DNA from: Petrotoga sp. 9PWA.NaAc.5.4
Lineage (GTDB): Bacteria; Thermotogota; Thermotogae; Petrotogales; Petrotogaceae
Assembly: GCF_002895485.1 (NCBI RefSeq)
Contig: NZ_AZRK01000004.1
Span: forward strand, 1-36,639
Direction of reading: 5' to 3'
Length of the DNA stretch: 36,639 bases
Below are positions 290 through 36,534 of the stretch, piece after piece (the first letter of the stretch is position 1; each line of letters opens with the position of its first letter). A program made the position numbers and the translations under genes. Below the pieces are notes generated by a model. It had not been told where the DNA came from. It made no database searches and saw only the letters and a list, made by a program, of their open reading frames with translations.

Positions 290-860
290 AATTATGAACT
301 TTCTATTATAGTTCCTTGAATCAACAGATAAAGAAAATTTCCCATATAGAGTGTCTATAAGAAAAGATAACAAAATATTGTTGGCCTTATTTGTACAAAA
401 CAAATGGCGATGTGATTTTCTCTTTTAAAAAAAACAATACAAAACCAAAGCTGGTGATTACGCTTTACTGCATAATGATGTAATAATTGCGGTTGTTGAA
501 AGAAAGAACTTTGAAAGTATAATTTCAGAAATTAAAAATCTGCCTATCTTTCATTTGAACCTTGGTGACTTAGAAAAATATAAGCATTCACCACTTGTTA
601 TCGAAACCAATTACTCTGATTTTTTGAATTCAGATAAATTAAAAATATATTCCCCGGCATACATTTCAAAAGTAATAGCAGAAATTTTTGCATTTCATCC
701 AATAAATTTTTTCAAGCAGTTGTTTCTTACGAAAAAGAATCTATACCCAACATAGTTGAGGAAGAAACTACACAATTCACTTCTTCTAAGAATTTTAAGA
801 CAAGTATTTATTACGATATAAGGAAAGAAATTATCCAAAATATTGAAAGTGATTTTAATA
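290..860 (+). pseudogene. ERCC4-type nuclease, multiply frameshifted
   Basis: The translation must be pieced together across frames. It runs from ENFPYRVSIRKDNKILLALF (about 325-400), through KAGDYALLHNDVIIAVVERK, to a tail ending near 860. GDYAL followed by VVERKNF matches the ERCC4 nuclease core GDY...ERK, whose acidic and basic residues bind metal and cut DNA. The later stretch SPLVIETNYSDFL and the SPAYISKVIAEI block also fit small bacterial ERCC4 nucleases. There are stops and shifts near 330, 427 and 712. At about 857 the sequence changes abruptly into the duplicated regulator/peptide module, so the 3' end was probably lost at that junction. Bases 137-290 hold nothing I can name. Confidence 0.7.
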
Positions 861-972
861 TTTCTATATACTCTTTTGTTTTATAGTTTAAAGGAATTGA
901 TTCAAGATAATTCAGCAATGGCTTTCCAAACTGTCCGTAAGTTGATAACTTGATAACCATTTTTAAAGACAT
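857..972 (-). pseudogene. Regulator copy A, N-terminal stub
   Basis: Starting at the ATG at 972 (ribosome site AAGGAG just upstream), the minus strand encodes MSLKMVIKLSTYGQFGKPLL and continues to about residue 38, nearly identical to the start of the degraded copy at 10774-11470 and homologous to the intact regulator at 34816-36534. Homology stops at about 857, where the ERCC4 remnant begins. Only the first helix or two of a protein of about 570 residues remain. Its promoter region and divergent peptide gene are preserved to the right, so this is the left edge of a duplicated segment. Confidence 0.85.
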
Positions 973-1045
973 TTGAATTATCTCCTTATGAATACCTGTT
1001 TTTGTTGTACAATTGTCATTTAAAAATAACATAATATTTACTTTT

Positions 1046-1272: not shown

Positions 1273-1338
1273 AAAAATAGTGAATGGTCTTTTGAGTTTG
1301 TAAGAAAAAAGTGTTACACATTACATATTATGCAAGGG

Positions 1339-1480
1339 GTGAAAAAGTTTGTTGCTATTTTTATTGACAAGAGTATTGTTATTAGGGGGCATTAGTTTTG
1401 GAGGAGATGAAGAAATAATATCAAGTTTAGAATCAATAAATCCTGAAGAAATTGTAAGCTATGCTGAGGAAAGTTGATAA
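1339..1480 (+). pseudogene. Exported signalling-type peptide, copy A, frameshifted
   Basis: The gene starts at GTG 1339. In frame it ends after 18 codons, but removing one base from the T-rich run near 1361 restores a peptide like those at 11839-11982 and 34296-34442: a KKFVAIF hydrophobic lead, then GGDEEIISSLESINPEE and a tail YAEES. Where the intact copies have TGG (Trp) before the stop, this one has TGA. It therefore carries both a frameshift and loss of the invariant terminal Trp, and is not functional. It heads the run into the radical-SAM remnant and ABC genes at 1.57-4.0 kb. Confidence 0.8.
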
Positions 1481-4364: not shown

Positions 4365-4650
4365 AAGAGTTATCGTAGCTTTTTTACTTTTTCTAAATTA
4401 ATGTAAGGAATATAATTTAATTGAGTTCATTATTATAAGAAAGAAGATATAGTATATAAATCACTCAAACATCTTTAACGTTTCAACAAGTTCTTCTCTT
4501 TCTTTTCCTTCAAAAATATAGAAAGAAGTTGCAGATAACCTTCTTTTTAAAATGTACTTCTTCACAAACAAATTGATTTCTTTTGGTACTTTTGGTCTTA
4601 ATTCTTTTGGTATGTTTTTTATTTCATCATACCTTCCATAATTCATTATA
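4365..4650. repeat. Inverted repeat with the window's right end
   Basis: The minus strand of this stretch closely matches 36345-36636: the last 60 or so codons of the regulator, its stop and about 100 bases beyond. Small differences are scattered through it. The two copies are in opposite orientation about 32 kb apart, so recombination between them could invert the region between. Confidence 0.85.
4461..4646 (-). pseudogene. Regulator C-terminal fragment
   Basis: About 61 codons in one open frame, from MNYGRYDEIKNIPKELRPKV to EELVETLKMFE, match the C-terminus of the 572-residue regulator at 34816-36534 and of the degraded copy at 10774-11470. Upstream of 4650 the match ends and a radical-SAM fragment begins. 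It is probably the 3' part of the regulator whose 5' stub lies at 857-972, or a separate copy; the sequence cannot decide. Confidence 0.85.
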
Positions 4651-4701
4651 GACTGCTTTAATTTTGTAGATGATAGTTTTTTGGTCTATTAAAAAAGGAT
4701 T

Positions 4702-5262
4702 AATTGGCGTGAAAATAAGGAATATACTAAAGAATTAATTGATTTGGCACAAAAGGTAAAGATATTAATGGTGATAGAGTTAGTATTCTTTTAGACAGAG
4801 ATGTTGCATATACACTTTAATTTAATAATGAGTGAAGTTTGGAAGGGATGTACTGGGGAGACAGTTAATAATATAATAAATATTAATTCAAAAAATAATT
4901 CCCAAAGATTTGATAATGCAAATCTTATGAGAGTGAATAGAGAAACTTTTTGGCAAAACTTTTATTATCATCCTTGCTTACATGGAACTCTTGCTTTGAA
5001 TTATGAGAGTAAAATATTACCCTGCCCTTATATGAAAGAGGAGATCTTATGCAATATGATAAAGGATATAGAATCTTTTAATATAATGTTTAGTGATCGA
5101 AAGGTTGACAAATACTGGAATCTGAATCTTGGCAAAATTGATAATTGTGAAGATTGTGTATTTAGGTTTGGTTGCTTTGAATGTAGAGCAATGGAGCTTA
5201 AGTTAACAAATAATTTAAATGGTAAGTTATTATGTTCTAGAAACAAAGATAAATCACTTTGA
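4702..5262 (+). pseudogene. Radical-SAM maturase, SPASM C-terminal fragment
   Basis: The N-terminal half, with the CxxxCxxC motif, is missing. The remnant starts WRENKEYTKELIDLAQK, shifts frame near 4757 and again near 4805, then runs open from 4801 to 5262. The open part has the SPASM pattern: HPCLHGTLALNYESKILPC, a further Cys, then CEDCVFRFGCFEC (CxxCx5CxxC) and a last Cys in LLCSR. This would have been the auxiliary-cluster domain of a second peptide-modifying enzyme. Truncation and two shifts make it non-functional. It lies 120 bases before an intact ABC pair. Confidence 0.8.
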
Positions 5263-9702: not shown

Positions 9703-10236
9703 ATGAAGTTAAAAAAATATTTTTTTGGTATATTGTTAATAGTATTTATTAGCTTTACTGTTAGTTCTTGTAATACTGAAATGAAACAGGCAAATGTTCC
9801 TTCTTCTATTGATGAAGTAGAGGAGTTCGTAGATTCATATTATTATAATAGTCAAACAGAAATGCAAATAGACACGGGATTAGATTTAGCATATTATCCA
9901 ATACAAAATAGTTATAGAGTTCAACTAACATTAAACAATGGAAATATTGTTGAGTTTATGACACTAGAGTTTGACAACTCCGAAAGTGCACAAAAGTATT
10001 ATAGAGATAATGATAGATTATACAACGTTAAATTAATGAATATTAATACAAATTTACCAAAGTATAAGTATAATAGCTTTAGAACATCAGAAGGAGTATA
10101 TATAACAATATGGCAGAAAGAAAATTGGGTAATTTGGATGAAAGGAAATTCAACAGAAGATATAAATAAGGTAAAAGATGAATTTAATAAATTTTTAGAA
10201 CAGCAAAATAATTCAACACATAACAACTCCTTGTAG
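9703..10236 (+). CDS. Hypothetical lipoprotein
   Basis: 177 residues with a clear lipoprotein signal: basic KLKK, a hydrophobic core (residues 6-19) and the lipobox VSSC with Cys at 23. The mature part is hydrophilic and lacks known motifs; it has YYYNS repeats, an FMTLEFDNSESAQKYY segment and a central WQKENWVIWM. GGAGG precedes the ATG at a good distance. It follows an ATPase/permease pair closely, the arrangement of lantibiotic-type immunity lipoproteins beside FEG transporters; an immunity or sensing role is inference only. I recognise no family. Confidence 0.8.
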   Translation: MKLKKYFFGILLIVFISFTVSSCNTEMKQANVPSSIDEVEEFVDSYYYNSQTEMQIDTGLDLAYYPIQNSYRVQLTLNNGNIVEFMTLEFDNSESAQKYYRDNDRLYNVKLMNINTNLPKYKYNSFRTSEGVYITIWQKENWVIWMKGNSTEDINKVKDEFNKFLEQQNNSTHNNSL

Positions 10237-10773: not shown

Positions 10774-11470
10774 TCAACTAAATACCTTTAACGTTTCAAC
10801 AAGTTCTTCTCTTTCTTTTCCTTCAAAAACATAGAACTAAATTGCTGAGTGAATCCTCTTTAACGTGTATTCCTTCACAAACAAATTGATTTCTTTTGGT
10901 ACTTTTGATCTTAATTCTTTTGGTATGTTTTTTATTTCATAATACCTTCCATAATTCATTATGTACCTTTCTATCATATCTTTTTGTTTTGAATTAGCTT
11001 TTATGTATCTTTCTATGAACTCTTGTAAGTAAGCTTTGTTTAAGTTTTTATGGAAGTGTAAAGTTTAAAGAAATGTTTTTATCTACATCTTTTAACCACC
11101 AACTTATATTATTTAAAGCTCCTACCATCCCAGATGGATGAGGTACATCCTTCAATGTCTTAAATGCTTGAATGTTTAACTTAGCTGCTTCTATATAATT
11201 TCCTTCATTCTTTTTTCTTCTTGCATTAGCCATAAGGATAAATCCCTTATTAACAGGATTATTTTCGTAATACAAACTACCTTTTCGTAGTTTTGAAATA
11301 TTTCTTTCTATAGCCTCAAGGACTTCATCATATTTATTATCCCAATATAATTTCAATATTTCTATATACTCTTTTGTTTTATCGTTTAAAGAAATTGATT
11401 CAAGATAGTTCATGAATGGTTTTCCAAACTGTCCGTAAGTTGATAACTTGATAACCATTTTTAAAGACAT
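10774..11470 (-). pseudogene. Regulator copy B, internally deleted
   Basis: It begins at ATG 11470 after AAGGAG and aligns with the intact regulator at 34816-36534, but two large parts are missing. About 70-80 residues are lost after residue 65 (the sequence jumps from SLYYENN to PVNKGFIL), and the whole centre, including the helix-turn-helix-like part, is lost at about 11048. There the frame shifts and ends at a TAA, and the C-terminal part continues in another frame with a further TAG in the FYVFEG region. The conserved block NEGNYIEAAKLNIQAFKTLK survives. It cannot bind DNA as the full protein would; any control here must come from the intact copy. Confidence 0.88.
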
Positions 11471-11544
11471 TTGAATTATCTCCTTATGAATATATCTGCT
11501 TTGTTTCCTGATTGTTATTTAAAAATAACATAATATTTACTTTT

Positions 11545-11838: not shown

Positions 11839-11982
11839 GTGAAAAAATTTGTTGTTATTTTATTGACAGTAGTATTGCTATCAGGGGGAGTTTTTGTTTT
11901 TGGTGGGGATGATGAAGGAATCTCATGTATAGAATCAGTAAATCCAGGAGAAATCGCAAGTAACATTGAAGAAAGTTGGTAA
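11839..11982 (+). CDS. Exported signalling-type peptide, copy B (ends EESW)
   Basis: 47 residues from GTG 11839. Layout: basic KK, a hydrophobic segment of about 19 residues (FVVILLTVVLLSGGVFVFG), a short acidic hydrophilic stretch (GGDDEG), one Cys, and the tail SNIEESW. The copy at 34296-34442 has the same layout and ends NIIEESW. A secretion signal with a small conserved C-terminus next to a divergent regulator is the organisation of peptide pheromones of the RRNPP/Rgg type; this is inference, as I know no named family with EESW. The ribosome site AAGGA abuts the GTG, which is unusually close. It is followed by the 36-residue peptide gene and ABC genes. Confidence 0.75.
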   Translation: MKKFVVILLTVVLLSGGVFVFGGDDEGISCIESVNPGEIASNIEESW

Positions 11983-31835: not shown

Positions 31836-32069
31836 ATGCTTATTTTTAGAAAATCTTCTTTATAAACGTTCCTAATCTCTTCTAACATGGTTCCAATTAA
31901 TTCTTACTGTTCTTTGCTAAAGTAAAGTCCGTCATAACTTACCTTTTTATTTTTAATGTATTCTCATATTACATTTAACAAGATTGTTAATATTAAAAAT
32001 TAAACCCGAATCATTATCATATATATATAAGTTTTCTTCATTAATCTGATATCTTAGAAAATTAGACAT
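31832..32069 (-). pseudogene. Radical-SAM maturase, N-terminal remnant
   Basis: ATG 32069 overlaps the exporter stop, as in a coupled operon. The frame reads SNFLRYQINEENLYIYDNDS then GLIFNINNLVKC, meets a stop, and continues in another frame as VSYDGLYFSKEQ, TAA, ELIGTMLEEIRNVYKEDFLK. The N-K/x-LYIYD-x-x-SG-x-IF-x-I pattern is that of the region before the CxxxCxxC motif in SPASM peptide maturases. The catalytic part is gone. Assignment rests on this N-terminal pattern and on context beside a Cys-rich precursor candidate. Confidence 0.5.
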
Positions 32070-33741
32070 TTTGTTCACTCCAACTGTTTTGCTTTAACAT
32101 CAAATTTATTGTTCTATTGCATATGTCATTAAAATAGTCGGAGTGGTCTATTATTATGCATATTTTTTCACATAATTCTGTCCCTATAAACGTTTTAATT
32201 AACTCTCTTGTTTCTTTATCTAAATGTGCAGCTGCTTCATCAAAAATAAATAAATCAGAGGAATCTGATTTTATAAGTGCACGCGCTATTGCTACTTTTT
32301 GTATTTCTCCTCCAGAAAGCTTTACCCCATTTTCCCCTACTAAGGTCTTATCCTTTAAAGGAAGGTTATCTATAAACTGCTTTAACCCGGATTTTTTTAG
32401 TGCTGTCTCGTATTTTTCCTCACTTACGTCTCCTACTATTTTTATATTGTTTTCTATGGTATCGTTGAATAAGAATATTTTCTGTGAAACTATTGATATT
32501 CTACTTCTTAAAGATCTTTTTGAAAGGTTTTTCAACTCTATAGAATTTATTAAAATTTCACCATCATAATTGCCATATAAACCTAATATCAACCTTATGA
32601 TTGTAGACTTTCCACTACCATTGGGTCCTTTCAAAAGTAATTTATCCCCTCTTTTTGTTTTTAAATTAAAATTATTTAATACATTCTCTTTCCCATCAGG
32701 ATATCTAAATGTCACATTTTTCATTTCTATATTATTTATTTCGTTTATTTTTATTTTGTCGGATGTTTCACTCTCTTGTGGATACTTTAAGAAGAAATCC
32801 TTGATTCTATCAAGAGCTACAAAAGCTGGTTTGAAAGTAAACATACTTAAATTCCAATTGATTACTGGAGCATATAATTTTCCAAAATATCCGACAAATG
32901 CCATATAAGTTCCTATTGATAAACTTTCTTGGAGGACACCTTTTCCACCTATATAGAGAAGAAGAACACTTACAATTGAAGAAAGAAGAATAATAGCTTC
33001 AGAGCCAACCGATAATAGGATACTGTATTTTATCGAAGATTTTACATAATCTTTATTGATTTTGTTTATCTTTTCAGTTTCTTTATCTTCTAAATTCATT
33101 CTCTTTATTTCTTCAACTCCACTTACTGACTGCTGAAATTTACCATGAAATGTAGCTGCTTTTTCCATTGTTTGACTTGTGAGTTTACCAAAAGTGGTTT
33201 CAAAGGTTTTTGTGATTAAATAGAATACAGGTATTATTAAGACTAATATTATAGTTAACTTAACATTCATTAAAAACATGATTACCATTGCTCCTATGAA
33301 TTCAAAAATACTCAGAATCAGTTTGAAACTTTGCATAGAAAATAATGGACTTAAAGAATCAACTTCTCCAAATCTTGAAACAATGTAACCACTTTCACTA
33401 TTTGAAAAAAATTCCAAAGGTAATTTCATAATGTGATTTGTCAAATCTTTTTTTATTTCAAATAAAGTGTTTTGACTAACTATGGTGAAAAGTGCCGAAC
33501 TTAAATAATTAAATATACTTTTTAAAATATAAATTACAACAAGTATTAGAACGTATTTTGTCAGAATACTCAAGTTTTTCATCATTATTCCTTCATCAAA
33601 AGCTAACTTGGTAACATAGGGAGGCAAAAGAGAAATTAACGATAAACCAATTAAAAAAAGAAAAGATATAATAAATAATTTTATTCTTGGTTTTATGTAA
33701 TTAAAAACAAATTTCACAAGTTGAGTATTTTTCACATTCAT
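32062..33741 (-). CDS. ABC exporter half-transporter
   Basis: 559 residues from ATG 33741 (ribosome site AAAGGAGG). Membrane domain with about six helices (18-300), ATPase domain from about 335: Walker A GPNGSGKST, Q-loop VSQKIFLFND, signature LSGGEIQK, Walker B LFIFDEAA with catalytic Glu, and an unusual H-loop IIIDHSD. There is no N-terminal peptidase domain. It works as a dimer, exporting a peptide, lipid or drug. It lies between the Cys-rich precursor candidate and the maturase remnant in one direction, so peptide export is the best guess. Confidence 0.92.
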   Translation of the reverse strand: MNVKNTQLVKFVFNYIKPRIKLFIISFLFLIGLSLISLLPPYVTKLAFDEGIMMKNLSILTKYVLILVVIYILKSIFNYLSSALFTIVSQNTLFEIKKDLTNHIMKLPLEFFSNSESGYIVSRFGEVDSLSPLFSMQSFKLILSIFEFIGAMVIMFLMNVKLTIILVLIIPVFYLITKTFETTFGKLTSQTMEKAATFHGKFQQSVSGVEEIKRMNLEDKETEKINKINKDYVKSSIKYSILLSVGSEAIILLSSIVSVLLLYIGGKGVLQESLSIGTYMAFVGYFGKLYAPVINWNLSMFTFKPAFVALDRIKDFFLKYPQESETSDKIKINEINNIEMKNVTFRYPDGKENVLNNFNLKTKRGDKLLLKGPNGSGKSTIIRLILGLYGNYDGEILINSIELKNLSKRSLRSRISIVSQKIFLFNDTIENNIKIVGDVSEEKYETALKKSGLKQFIDNLPLKDKTLVGENGVKLSGGEIQKVAIARALIKSDSSDLFIFDEAAAHLDKETRELIKTFIGTELCEKICIIIDHSDYFNDICNRTINLMLKQNSWSEQNV

Positions 33742-33872: not shown

Positions 33873-34050
33873 TTAAATAAAAGAAGCTGAAGCTAAACTA
33901 GTTTTACTACCAGCGGTTGAGCCTGCAGCATCAGCAATAGGTACTGGACCATCAACGGCACATATAATATATGGAAATAAGCAAACCACACATGCTGCGC
34001 AACCTATTCTTTTGTTTTTTATCCTTTTTAATTTTTTAAGATATGCTCAT
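33873..34050 (-). pseudogene. Cys-rich precursor candidate, sactipeptide-like, start out of frame
   Basis: A 57-codon frame on the minus strand reads AYLKKLKRIKNKRIGC, then AACVVCLFPYIIC, then AVDGPVPIADAAGSTAGSKT and SLASASFI. Four Cys (spacing CxxCxxCx6C) lie in the first half; the second half is rich in Ala, Ser, Gly and Thr. Hairpin sactipeptides such as thurincin H have this build, the Cys being joined to alpha carbons of the second half by a radical-SAM maturase. The frame has no usual start: ATG 34050 runs into TAA after four codons, but one base more or less in the A-run after it would join them. So it is either a fresh frameshift or starts unconventionally. It lies between the EESW peptide and an exporter. 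Confidence 0.55.
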
Positions 34051-34295
34051 CTTGAGAATGAAAAACCCTGTACCTTCTGCAAAACTTTGGGTTGTTACCT
34101 AAAAAACGTGCTTTCTGATTTAACATACTATTTAGTTCAATTAGTAAATATCTTTGATTAGGTCAAAAGCAAGACTATTTTTCAAAGGTAAATGCTAATC
34201 AAAAGGGTTCAATCAGAAACTAAGATCTGGTAACTGTACTTCCAAGAATAATAGAATGATTAAAAATAGGTAATCATAAAGTTTAAAATACACAT

Positions 34296-34442
34296 TTACC
34301 AACTTTCTTCAATAATATTCATAATAGCTCCAGTTTCCAACATATTTGTTTTAACCGTATCCTTATCATCTTCTCCAGCAAATACAACTATTCCACCTAA
34401 AAGTAAAAGTGAAACAATAAAAACAACAAATATTTTTTTCAT
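34296..34442 (-). CDS. Exported signalling-type peptide, copy C (ends EESW)
   Basis: 48 residues from ATG 34442, with GGGGAGG and GAGAGG upstream. KK, a hydrophobic run of about 18 residues (IFVVFIVSLLLLGGIVVF), A-G-E-D-D-K-D, a polar middle, and the tail MNIIEESW. The AxG-like site after VVFA suits signal-peptidase cleavage, leaving about 26 residues. It is divergent from the intact regulator at 34816 and heads the minus-strand run of Cys-rich peptide, exporter and ABC genes. Conservation of the last four residues with copy B, while the middle varies, is what one expects if the mature signal is the C-terminus. Confidence 0.82.
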   Translation of the reverse strand: MKKIFVVFIVSLLLLGGIVVFAGEDDKDTVKTNMLETGAIMNIIEESW

Positions 34443-34518
34443 CCTCTCTATCCTCCCCTTCTAATAATTCACCTACCTTTTAAATACTAACTGCACAATT
34501 ACCTTCTCTCTATTTCTT

Positions 34519-34546
34519 ATCATATCACTTACCATATGACTGTCAA
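34519..34546 (-). promoter_or_regulatory. Promoter of peptide gene, copy C
   Basis: Minus-strand TTGACA (34546-34541), a 16-base spacer and TATGAT (34524-34519): one mismatch from consensus in all. It lies 77 bases upstream of the peptide start and would drive the whole minus-strand operon. The strongest promoter in the window by eye. Confidence 0.7.
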
Positions 34547-34610
34547 GTACCATACCAACTTCTAAAATATGCATGAACAAAGGATTGTTATTTTTGATTT
34601 TTTAAAAAAT

Positions 34611-34628
34611 AATGTTAACATGAACATT
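34611..34628. promoter_or_regulatory. Palindromic AATGTT-N6-AACATT, possible operator
   Basis: Six-base inverted arms in the 373-base intergenic region between peptide and regulator copy C, about 65 bases upstream of the peptide -35. Its left half, AATGTTAAC, is the core of the motif before all regulator copies (see 34730-34743). The remainder of the 34443-34815 gap contains only promoters. Confidence 0.4.
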
Positions 34629-34729
34629 AACTTTAAAGATGCTTGAAGTAAATATTCTTCTTTCTCTTTAATTAATGCTAATTATGATATAATAATTTTT
34701 GTAAAATAAAATTTATTTTTATGTAAGCT

Positions 34730-34743
34730 GTTAACATTCAAAC
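34730..34743 (+). promoter_or_regulatory. Conserved regulator-promoter motif, copy C
   Basis: GTTAACATTCAAAC, one base different from copies A and B, ends 72 bases before the regulator ATG in the same orientation. TTAACA can be a -35, with TATATA/TATATT 16-18 bases on as -10. The surrounding intergenic sequence is otherwise unlike A and B, so retention of this block points to function. Confidence 0.6.
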
Positions 34744-34815
34744 GATGCGTTTTATATATTATTTTTCTGTACCTATTAGGTAACAAAAAGATTGTGTAAT
34801 TGGGGGTCTTTTAAA

Positions 34816-36534
34816 ATGCGTATAAAAGAGTTTGTTCACATTTTAGATTTTGGTGTATTTTCAAAACCTTTTTTGAACTATATTATCGACAGTGAAAATG
34901 ATTTTAAATTAGAAAAAGGAATTAGAGAGTATATAAAAGTACTGAAATTAGTTTGGGAAATGGAATACGAAGAAGCTTTAAAAACAATAGATGAAAATAT
35001 AAATAGAGTAAAGAATACTTCCATTTATTTCTTATTTCTCTGCGAAAAGATGTCAATATCAAATAAATTAAGAAATATAGAAGAAGTTTTTAAAATATAC
35101 AATGAATTAAGAATAAAGTTTGATCATATTTCTGAAATTATAAGAGGAATAGTTGTTGAAGCTTTATGTAATAATTATCAAATGTACAAAGATCATACAA
35201 ATGAAGAAATACAACTCACAAGATTTTGGAGTAAAAAATATGAAGAAATTGCTCCTGTGAAAGGATTCATATTAATTTCACAAGCTAGAGGAAAAAAGAA
35301 TGAAGGAAATTATATAGAAGCAGCTAAGTTAAACATTCAAGCATTTAAGACATTGAAGGATGTACCTCATCCATCTGGGATGGTAGGAGCTTTAAACAAC
35401 ATAAGTTGGTGGTTAAAAGATGTAGATAAAAACATTTCTTTAAACTCTACACTTCCATTAGGATTTTATGCATCCTATTACTTTGACGATAATAATTACA
35501 AAGTTTTCAATTCGCTTGATACTATCTTTCAAGTGCAAAAAAATAACAACGATCCAATGGTGTATGAAACAGCTTTTATCTTCTCAAAGTGTTTATCAAA
35601 GGTTGATAAAGAAAGATACAATGCTTTAAATAGAAAATGTAGAAAAAGTATCAATCATTTAAAATACTTTGTTTTTAATTTAGATAGCAATTATTATTTA
35701 AACACAAAGACTTTAAGAAATTTTATAAAACAAGAAATAGAAAAAGAACAAGTTTCTATTAAAGAATTAAATATCTCAAAAAGAACTTTGAATGATTTCT
35801 TATCTGGAAAAAGAAAATACCTTCAACCAAATACATTGAGAAACATAATAGAGAATCTTGAGTTTGAAATAAACAGTTCCCTTGCTATTCCAATAATAAA
35901 AGAACTAAAAAAGAAAGATATAGACCAAAAGTTTGAAGAAAACTTTTACAAATTTATGAGGTTAAAGATAGAAAAGCAACTCTCAGAATTTTTTACTTCG
36001 TATCTTGTTCATTATTACAAGCAAGAGGTTAAATTAGAAAAAGTGATTAAAGGCATAGAAAGTGGAAGTTTAATCAAAGAAAGATGTGATTATTACACAA
36101 GAGAGTTAATAAACTCAATATTTGAAAAAACTCCAAAGTTAGATGTTGATTCATTACTTACAAACAACCAAGAACAAAAAACATACACAAACAAAGATAT
36201 AACCTTCAAAGAACATCCCTTTTATTTAGCAAGGAAAGAGCTTGTAAAAAGGTTCATGAAAGATTTAAATAAGATACACTTACAAGAGTTCATTGAAAAC
36301 TATATAAAAGCTAATTCAAAACAAAAAGATATAATAGAAAGGTACATAATGAACTATGGAAGGTATTATGAAATAAAAAACATACCAAAAGAATTAACGC
36401 CAAAGGTGCCAAAAGAAATCGATCAATTTGTAAAGGAATACACGTTAAAGAGGATTCCCTCAGCAATTTCGTTCTATGTTTTTGAAGGAAAAGAAAGAGA
36501 AGAACTTGTTGAAACGTTAAAGATGTTTGAGTGA
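34816..36534 (+). CDS. Putative peptide-responsive regulator, helical with central HTH
   Basis: 572 residues from ATG 34816, which has GGGGG eight bases before; a TTG eight codons earlier is possible but lacks a ribosome site. No signal peptide or membrane helix, so cytoplasmic. Residues 1-290 look like helical TPR-type repeats (for example EGNYIEAAKLNIQAFKTL near 163-180). Around 298-352 comes an XRE-like helix-turn-helix: LRNFIKQEIEKEQ, IKELNISKRTLNDFLSGKRK and TLRNIIENL. The last 100 residues (HPFYLARKELVKRFM to LVETLKMFE) are conserved between copies but match nothing I know. A TPR part plus HTH beside an exported peptide gene recalls RRNPP regulators, though in those the HTH is N-terminal. 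The only intact copy here. Confidence 0.75.
   Translation: MRIKEFVHILDFGVFSKPFLNYIIDSENDFKLEKGIREYIKVLKLVWEMEYEEALKTIDENINRVKNTSIYFLFLCEKMSISNKLRNIEEVFKIYNELRIKFDHISEIIRGIVVEALCNNYQMYKDHTNEEIQLTRFWSKKYEEIAPVKGFILISQARGKKNEGNYIEAAKLNIQAFKTLKDVPHPSGMVGALNNISWWLKDVDKNISLNSTLPLGFYASYYFDDNNYKVFNSLDTIFQVQKNNNDPMVYETAFIFSKCLSKVDKERYNALNRKCRKSINHLKYFVFNLDSNYYLNTKTLRNFIKQEIEKEQVSIKELNISKRTLNDFLSGKRKYLQPNTLRNIIENLEFEINSSLAIPIIKELKKKDIDQKFEENFYKFMRLKIEKQLSEFFTSYLVHYYKQEVKLEKVIKGIESGSLIKERCDYYTRELINSIFEKTPKLDVDSLLTNNQEQKTYTNKDITFKEHPFYLARKELVKRFMKDLNKIHLQEFIENYIKANSKQKDIIERYIMNYGRYYEIKNIPKELTPKVPKEIDQFVKEYTLKRIPSAISFYVFEGKEREELVETLKMFE

Follow-up and report, generated by a model that had tools for sequence, protein, structure and literature searches.

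A small exported peptide and a large regulator encoded divergently from it were found to recur as a gene pair across the phylum Thermotogota, and the pair looks like a previously undescribed family of bacterial cell-to-cell signalling systems, this function being putative. The pairing, the peptide family, the promoter box, the linkage to operons and the domain structure of the regulator were all established by computation. We put a probability of roughly 0.7 on the reading that the module is a peptide-signalling (quorum-type) system, similar to the RRNPP systems in its working but with a separate architecture.

The peptide and regulator genes of the window

The window, i.e., the whole stretch of DNA analysed (36,639 nucleotides), is the entire contig C4 of a 2.22-Mb genome, and the features annotated in it are provided in Table 1. 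A 48-residue exported peptide divergent from a large protein had been proposed in the earlier note, and both open reading frames are indeed present, with a ribosome site before the peptide gene. The likely start of the regulator is the ATG at 34816 rather than the TTG at 34792, since the homologues begin there and the first residues of the structure model are disordered. Only one intact copy of the regulator exists in the genome, the remaining matches all being scraps. Neither Pfam nor NCBIfam has a family for the regulator, and an Rfam scan of the window gave no match. A defence system was considered and rejected, as PADLOC found no match for the window pair and gives only a generic TPR model for the homologous locus L113.

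Table 1. Features of the signalling module, its decayed copies and its divergent operon in the window
Feature	Position	Strand	Remarks
Exported peptide gene	34296-34442	-	48 aa, MKKIFVVFIVSLLLLGGIVVFAGEDDKDTVKTNMLETGAIMNIIEESW; upstream ribosome site; signal-type N-terminus of MKK, hydrophobic core and VFA|G; tail MLETGAIMNIIEESW
Promoter/operator box of the peptide gene	34519-34546	-	TTGACAGTCATATGG...TATGAT (-35 box and -10); conserved; putative operator
Regulator	34816-36534	+	572 aa with the ATG start, or 580 aa with TTG 34792
Cys-rich RiPP precursor remnant	33873-33989	-	Has lost leader and start by deletion; follows the peptide gene
ABC exporter (membrane + ATPase) of the divergent operon	32062-33741	-	
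Radical-SAM maturase	31953-32078	-	Truncated to first residues; intact (484 aa) in relative L041
Second exported peptide	11839-11982	+	GTG start, 47 aa, ...SNIEESW; intact; adjoins decayed regulator
Decayed regulator copy	10780-11473	-	Most of middle deleted; stops
C-terminal regulator scrap	4461-4661	-	
Decayed third peptide	1338-1477	+	Frameshift in signal region; final Trp codon is a stop (...YAEES-stop)
Regulator scrap of third, decayed module	811-1032	-	

The pair had also been said to recur at 10.8-12.0 kb and 0.86-1.48 kb. Traces of both copies are present and one of the peptides is intact, but both regulators are decayed and the other peptide is broken; two further working pairs in the window are ruled out, both being remnants.

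Occurrence and pairing in the Thermotogota

Homologues of the regulator were found in 60 of the 103 Thermotogota genomes and in 32 of the 38 genera in a phylum search that used a 42-row alignment as query. Searches of the plasmid, phage and viral collections gave no relatives, and a phage- or plasmid-borne (arbitrium-like) module was rejected on this ground. A total of 88 intact regulator genes were gathered within the same order and in many families outside it, and the 79 with 550 bp of upstream DNA were scanned within that distance for an open reading frame of 28-75 aa with a secretion-type N-terminus. Such a frame is present on the divergent strand of 57 of these 79 regulators, with a ribosome-site-like sequence at 54. 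The same scan returned ten on the other upstream strand (none with a ribosome site), and ten (four with a ribosome site) and fourteen (two) downstream. Seventy-six unrelated genes from the same loci, with mostly non-coding upstream DNA, served as controls; five of them have such a frame and none has a ribosome site (Fisher p ~1e-22, a value that is too small because the loci are related to each other, although the contrast itself is unaffected). The pairing of the small exported peptide with the regulator is real and far beyond chance, and regulators mostly devoid of an adjacent peptide, the outcome named beforehand as the one that would count against the pairing, were not what was observed. 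Around 18-22 of the 79 regulators have no recognisable peptide, some of these loci having longer or shorter candidates or a truncated peptide.

The exported peptides

Judged by their sequences, the peptides are one homologous family throughout the phylum, in which the signal end is common and the tail has diversified. Nearly all of them start with MKK or MRR followed by about 18 hydrophobic residues that end in F[AG][DG], and the motif T[DN]S.NP is common to many. The tails differ by clade (...VVEEVE, ...EESW, ...FDINQ, ...NPQIQIEFSE and ...NPHPPVVTKQK). The EESW tail, which had been taken as the signature of the signal, marks a single clade and is ruled out as a family signature. In the Petrotoga-like set, pN/pS is 0.44 in the signal and 0.84-0.95 after it, a pattern as for a coding, diversifying peptide.

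The distance between two tails correlates with that between their regulators (r=0.70, Mantel p=0.0005, 17 pairs), the best partial signal being found for regulator residues 66-145. A weaker correlation is seen inside single genomes (rho 0.46, p 0.007), with clear exceptions, as in one genome where identical peptides adjoin regulators that are only ~0.63 similar in their N-terminal halves. Strong coevolution was rejected; the covariation is moderate and is partly due to phylogeny as a confounder. The tails tend to go with the regulator, as the earlier note had expected, though more loosely within genomes.

Upstream of the regulators at L077:6380-8140 and L029:1465-3114, exported peptides with internal repeats were observed (DYDPPDGEVVDG and ANDPPDVDNLESV respectively, each occurring twice), which resemble multi-copy pheromone precursors.

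The promoter box

Group-by-group alignment of the divergent promoters gave the same box, ACTTGAAAAnCATATGG, in the Petrotoga-like, Marinitoga-like and Thermotoga-like sets, where TTGAAA is the -35 element and a TATAAT-like -10 follows. The pattern TTGAnAnnCATnT was detected upstream in 41 of the 82 distinct regions, exclusively on the divergent strand, and once downstream (shuffled controls: mean 0.84, maximum 3), and a weight matrix finds the box in 54 of 84 regions. No box was found in family f7. A stricter pattern that includes the -10 has two sites in the entire window genome, namely this promoter and another decayed locus, and of the 14 box sites in four other genomes, all except one or two lie at such loci, the control pattern having none. 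Some sites (L152, L155) sit immediately upstream of a radical-SAM or ABC gene without an intervening peptide. A box shared by the peptide gene and the target operon is a feature of SHP/Rgg-type control and is present here as well.

Behind the second site in the window genome (G000:C13:69841-69868) lie a peptide that has decayed (MKKVTAVLLAGVLLLG...) and an MFS-like transporter that is intact.

The divergent operons

The main partner of the module, missed by the earlier note, is the divergent radical-SAM/RiPP/ABC operon behind the common promoter box. Among the 56 regulators with at least 5 kb of upstream DNA, the divergent strand carries a radical-SAM gene in 28 and an ABC exporter in 32, while the other direction from the regulator gave none and three respectively. 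The identity of the radical-SAM cargo genes was confirmed by Pfam, and short Cys-rich open reading frames lie between the exported peptide and the radical-SAM gene. A precursor, a radical-SAM enzyme and an exporter make up a target operon of the SHP/Rgg kind, although it is decayed in the window itself.

The intact form of the window operon is seen in L041, where an exported peptide (...NIIKESW) is followed by two Cys-rich precursors (MAEIDVDPEGIGCLACAGC... and MKEMNPDGVGCWIVCGSGC..., both homologous to the window remnant), the ABC exporter and two radical-SAM genes. With the precursor start deleted and the radical-SAM gene cut down to its first residues, the RiPP product is probably no longer made in the window strain although the peptide/regulator pair is intact. 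Frameshifted radical-SAM/SPASM remnants at 1601-2608 and 4801-5262 indicate that the two other RiPP modules of the contig are also left without maturases, their ABC genes being intact. A lipoprotein-like open reading frame at 9703-10236, with sub-threshold matches to DUF3242 and DUF4830, is found between RiPP-type ABC genes.

The segment of ~300 nt that separates the peptide from the precursor remnant (33990-34300) is 94% identical to that of L041 and is more conserved between the two than the signal region of the peptide. L041 has a second copy (79%, 147 nt) beside an apparent IS110 transposase remnant, and Rfam gave no match for the segment, which is possibly an insertion-sequence end or an RNA.

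The pair in L113, from genome G090, which we take to be T. maritima MSB8, faces a 31-aa Cys peptide (MQKMPKPVVPNDYLNPGKGCGGAGLVCGWCG), a radical-SAM/SPASM enzyme and ABC genes. The 31-aa peptide is presumably TM1316 of the TM1315-TM1319 operon. In this locus the gene of the exported peptide directly precedes that of the 31-aa peptide, and both are divergent from the regulator. Frock et al. 2013 reportedly describe stationary-phase and nutrient control of a locus containing TM1316. Our literature search returned no description of the divergent regulator of the TM1316 locus, of the exported peptide as a signal or of the promoter box, and no paper linking such a peptide/regulator pair to the Thermotogota.

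RiPP genes are not the only cargo. In one conserved version found in Marinitoga-like genomes, the cargo consists of an HD-domain protein and an MFS transporter with both the pair and the box kept, and at further loci without RiPP genes secreted proteins follow the pair. These loci bear on an explanation in which the regulator controls the divergent operon in response to something else and the small exported protein, instead of being a signal, serves the RiPP operon as an accessory, such as an immunity protein, a chaperone or an envelope factor. At many loci a RiPP/ABC operon begins with the peptide gene, and the peptide tail is only mildly constrained, as would suit an accessory, but the presence of the pair where no RiPP genes follow, the persistence of the peptide beside decayed RiPP genes as in the window, and the change of its tail by clade make this explanation unlikely.

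Architecture of the regulator

The AlphaFold model (pLDDT 92, pTM 0.92) predicts an N-terminal TPR-like solenoid (~10-300), a central Cro/C1-type HTH (~300-360) and an all-helical C-terminal domain (~366-577). The HTH-like region recognised in the earlier note is a genuine HTH, and the L113 homologue has Pfam matches above cut-off to TPR_12 (148-212) and to HTH_26 and HTH_3 (285-335). An HTH segment is present in 77 of the 88 intact members at a median relative position of 0.52. The other 11 have no central HTH, which makes the DNA-binding part of the protein uncertain, and the box is nevertheless kept at nine of these 11 loci; in genome G025, every intact regulator examined is HTH-less and boxes are frequent at its loci. 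The central HTH is therefore doubtful as the sole reader of the box, and the C-terminal domain may carry the DNA output. Paralogues within a genome are 33-60% identical in the first 140 residues and 62-99% in the last 100, a pattern that would be expected if specific sensors had one output in common. From these observations we infer that the solenoid acts as the sensor, which diverges, and that the C-terminal domain provides a common DNA output.

The three T. maritima paralogues (L113:5311-6918, L113:12874-14484 and L114:4943-6511) are 99% identical in the last 100 residues and ~50-56% in the N-terminal half, which suggests strong homogenisation of one domain.

A full-length fold search against the PDB gave no significant match (none at E<=0.001), only generic TPRs. 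No single peptide receptor significantly matches the fold of the solenoid, and the PDB gave no significant match for the C-terminal domain. Matches of the latter to the archaeal AGOG DNA glycosylase recur but are weak (E>1) and are not counted as evidence, and its Pfam match to SRI is below cut-off.

Comparison with known systems

The sbo-alb cluster of subtilosin A and other sactipeptide and ranthipeptide clusters contain a Cys-rich precursor, a radical-SAM SPASM enzyme and an ABC transporter. The RiPP parts are the same in the Thermotogota, but those clusters are not known to have a TPR regulator/exported-peptide pair in front. The central HTH matches HTH_26 and HTH_3, and HipB weakly, as in the HipB and Cro/C1 regulators, although here it is flanked by a TPR solenoid and a new C-terminal domain, and some members are without it.

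The closest likeness is to the SHP/Rgg systems of streptococci (streptide, tryglysin), which belong to RRNPP and in which a small exported pro-peptide likewise lies beside a TPR/HTH regulator, with a radical-SAM RiPP operon with exporter as target and a box close to the -35. In both, moreover, one genome carries several paralogous systems (PMC8092268, PMC12445099). In contrast, the Thermotogota module occurs in a different phylum with a diderm envelope, and its regulator has 520-580 aa, with the TPR N-terminal and the HTH central (as in L113), the reverse of the RRNPP order, and with an extra conserved C-terminal domain that is absent from RRNPP. By analogy, the best reading is that the module would work like SHP/Rgg control of RaS-RiPPs while lying outside RRNPP on the tested features, given the reversed domain order, the missing homology signal and the extra domain. 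The suggestion of an RRNPP-like but unrelated-looking pair thus survives in that most homologues have an adjacent exported peptide, and needs correction in three details, as EESW belongs to one clade, the copies are decayed and the operon had been overlooked.

A divergent RRNPP member, derived from an Rgg/PlcR-type protein by domain rearrangement, would account for the same set of parts (TPR, HTH, exported pro-peptide, RaS-RiPP target), and the matches of the fold search include RapF (rank 32, E 0.055). The box near the -35 for the streptococcal Rgg PdrA, AATTGTxTATATGGGAT (PMC8092268), loosely resembles the Thermotogota box variant ACTTGTTTATCATATGG, which may be coincidence or a deep link. 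We regard such a descent as rather improbable, since the domain order is reversed, a PDB profile search gave no RRNPP match at E<=10, nothing corresponds to the C-terminal domain and the top-ranking folds are generic TPRs. The RRNPP_detector survey covered Firmicutes and viruses only and discarded N-terminal TPRs (PMC10075063), so that the Thermotogota family would have been missed.

A bacteriocin or toxin function of the small peptide itself, with control and immunity provided by the regulator and the ABC exporter, is very improbable, since separate Cys-rich precursors are the evident products and the exported peptides, fast-evolving and beside exporters though they are, are essentially Cys-free and acidic with a kept Sec-type signal.

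Proposed mechanism and implications

In the peptide-signalling reading, we infer that the pro-peptide would be exported by means of its signal sequence and cut down to its C-terminal ~10-25 residues; this mature peptide would accumulate and then be re-imported by an oligopeptide ABC importer; nine importer-type oligopeptide-binding proteins are encoded in the window genome. The mature peptide would be bound by the N-terminal solenoid of the regulator, which may then act, by activation rather than repression and possibly through contact of its C-terminal domain, on the box overlapping the -35 of the divergent promoter. The peptide gene would thereby be switched on (autoinduction) together with the operon behind it, usually one for a radical-SAM-modified Cys-rich peptide with exporters.

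We lean slightly towards the wider view of a phylum-wide Thermotogota quorum-sensing family, independent of RRNPP, with its own peptides and its own receptor (a TPR solenoid, an optional HTH and a new C-terminal DNA-output domain that reads the box), controlling RiPPs and other cargo. Cytoplasmic TPR peptide receptors have been described for Gram-positive bacteria and their mobile elements, to which the large survey was confined (PMC10075063). If true, the module would represent a second solution to peptide sensing, phylum-wide in deep-branching thermophiles with a diderm envelope, and would account for the control of the stationary-phase TM1316 locus in T. maritima. With one box, one peptide and one regulator per locus and an organism already in culture, the module is readily testable.
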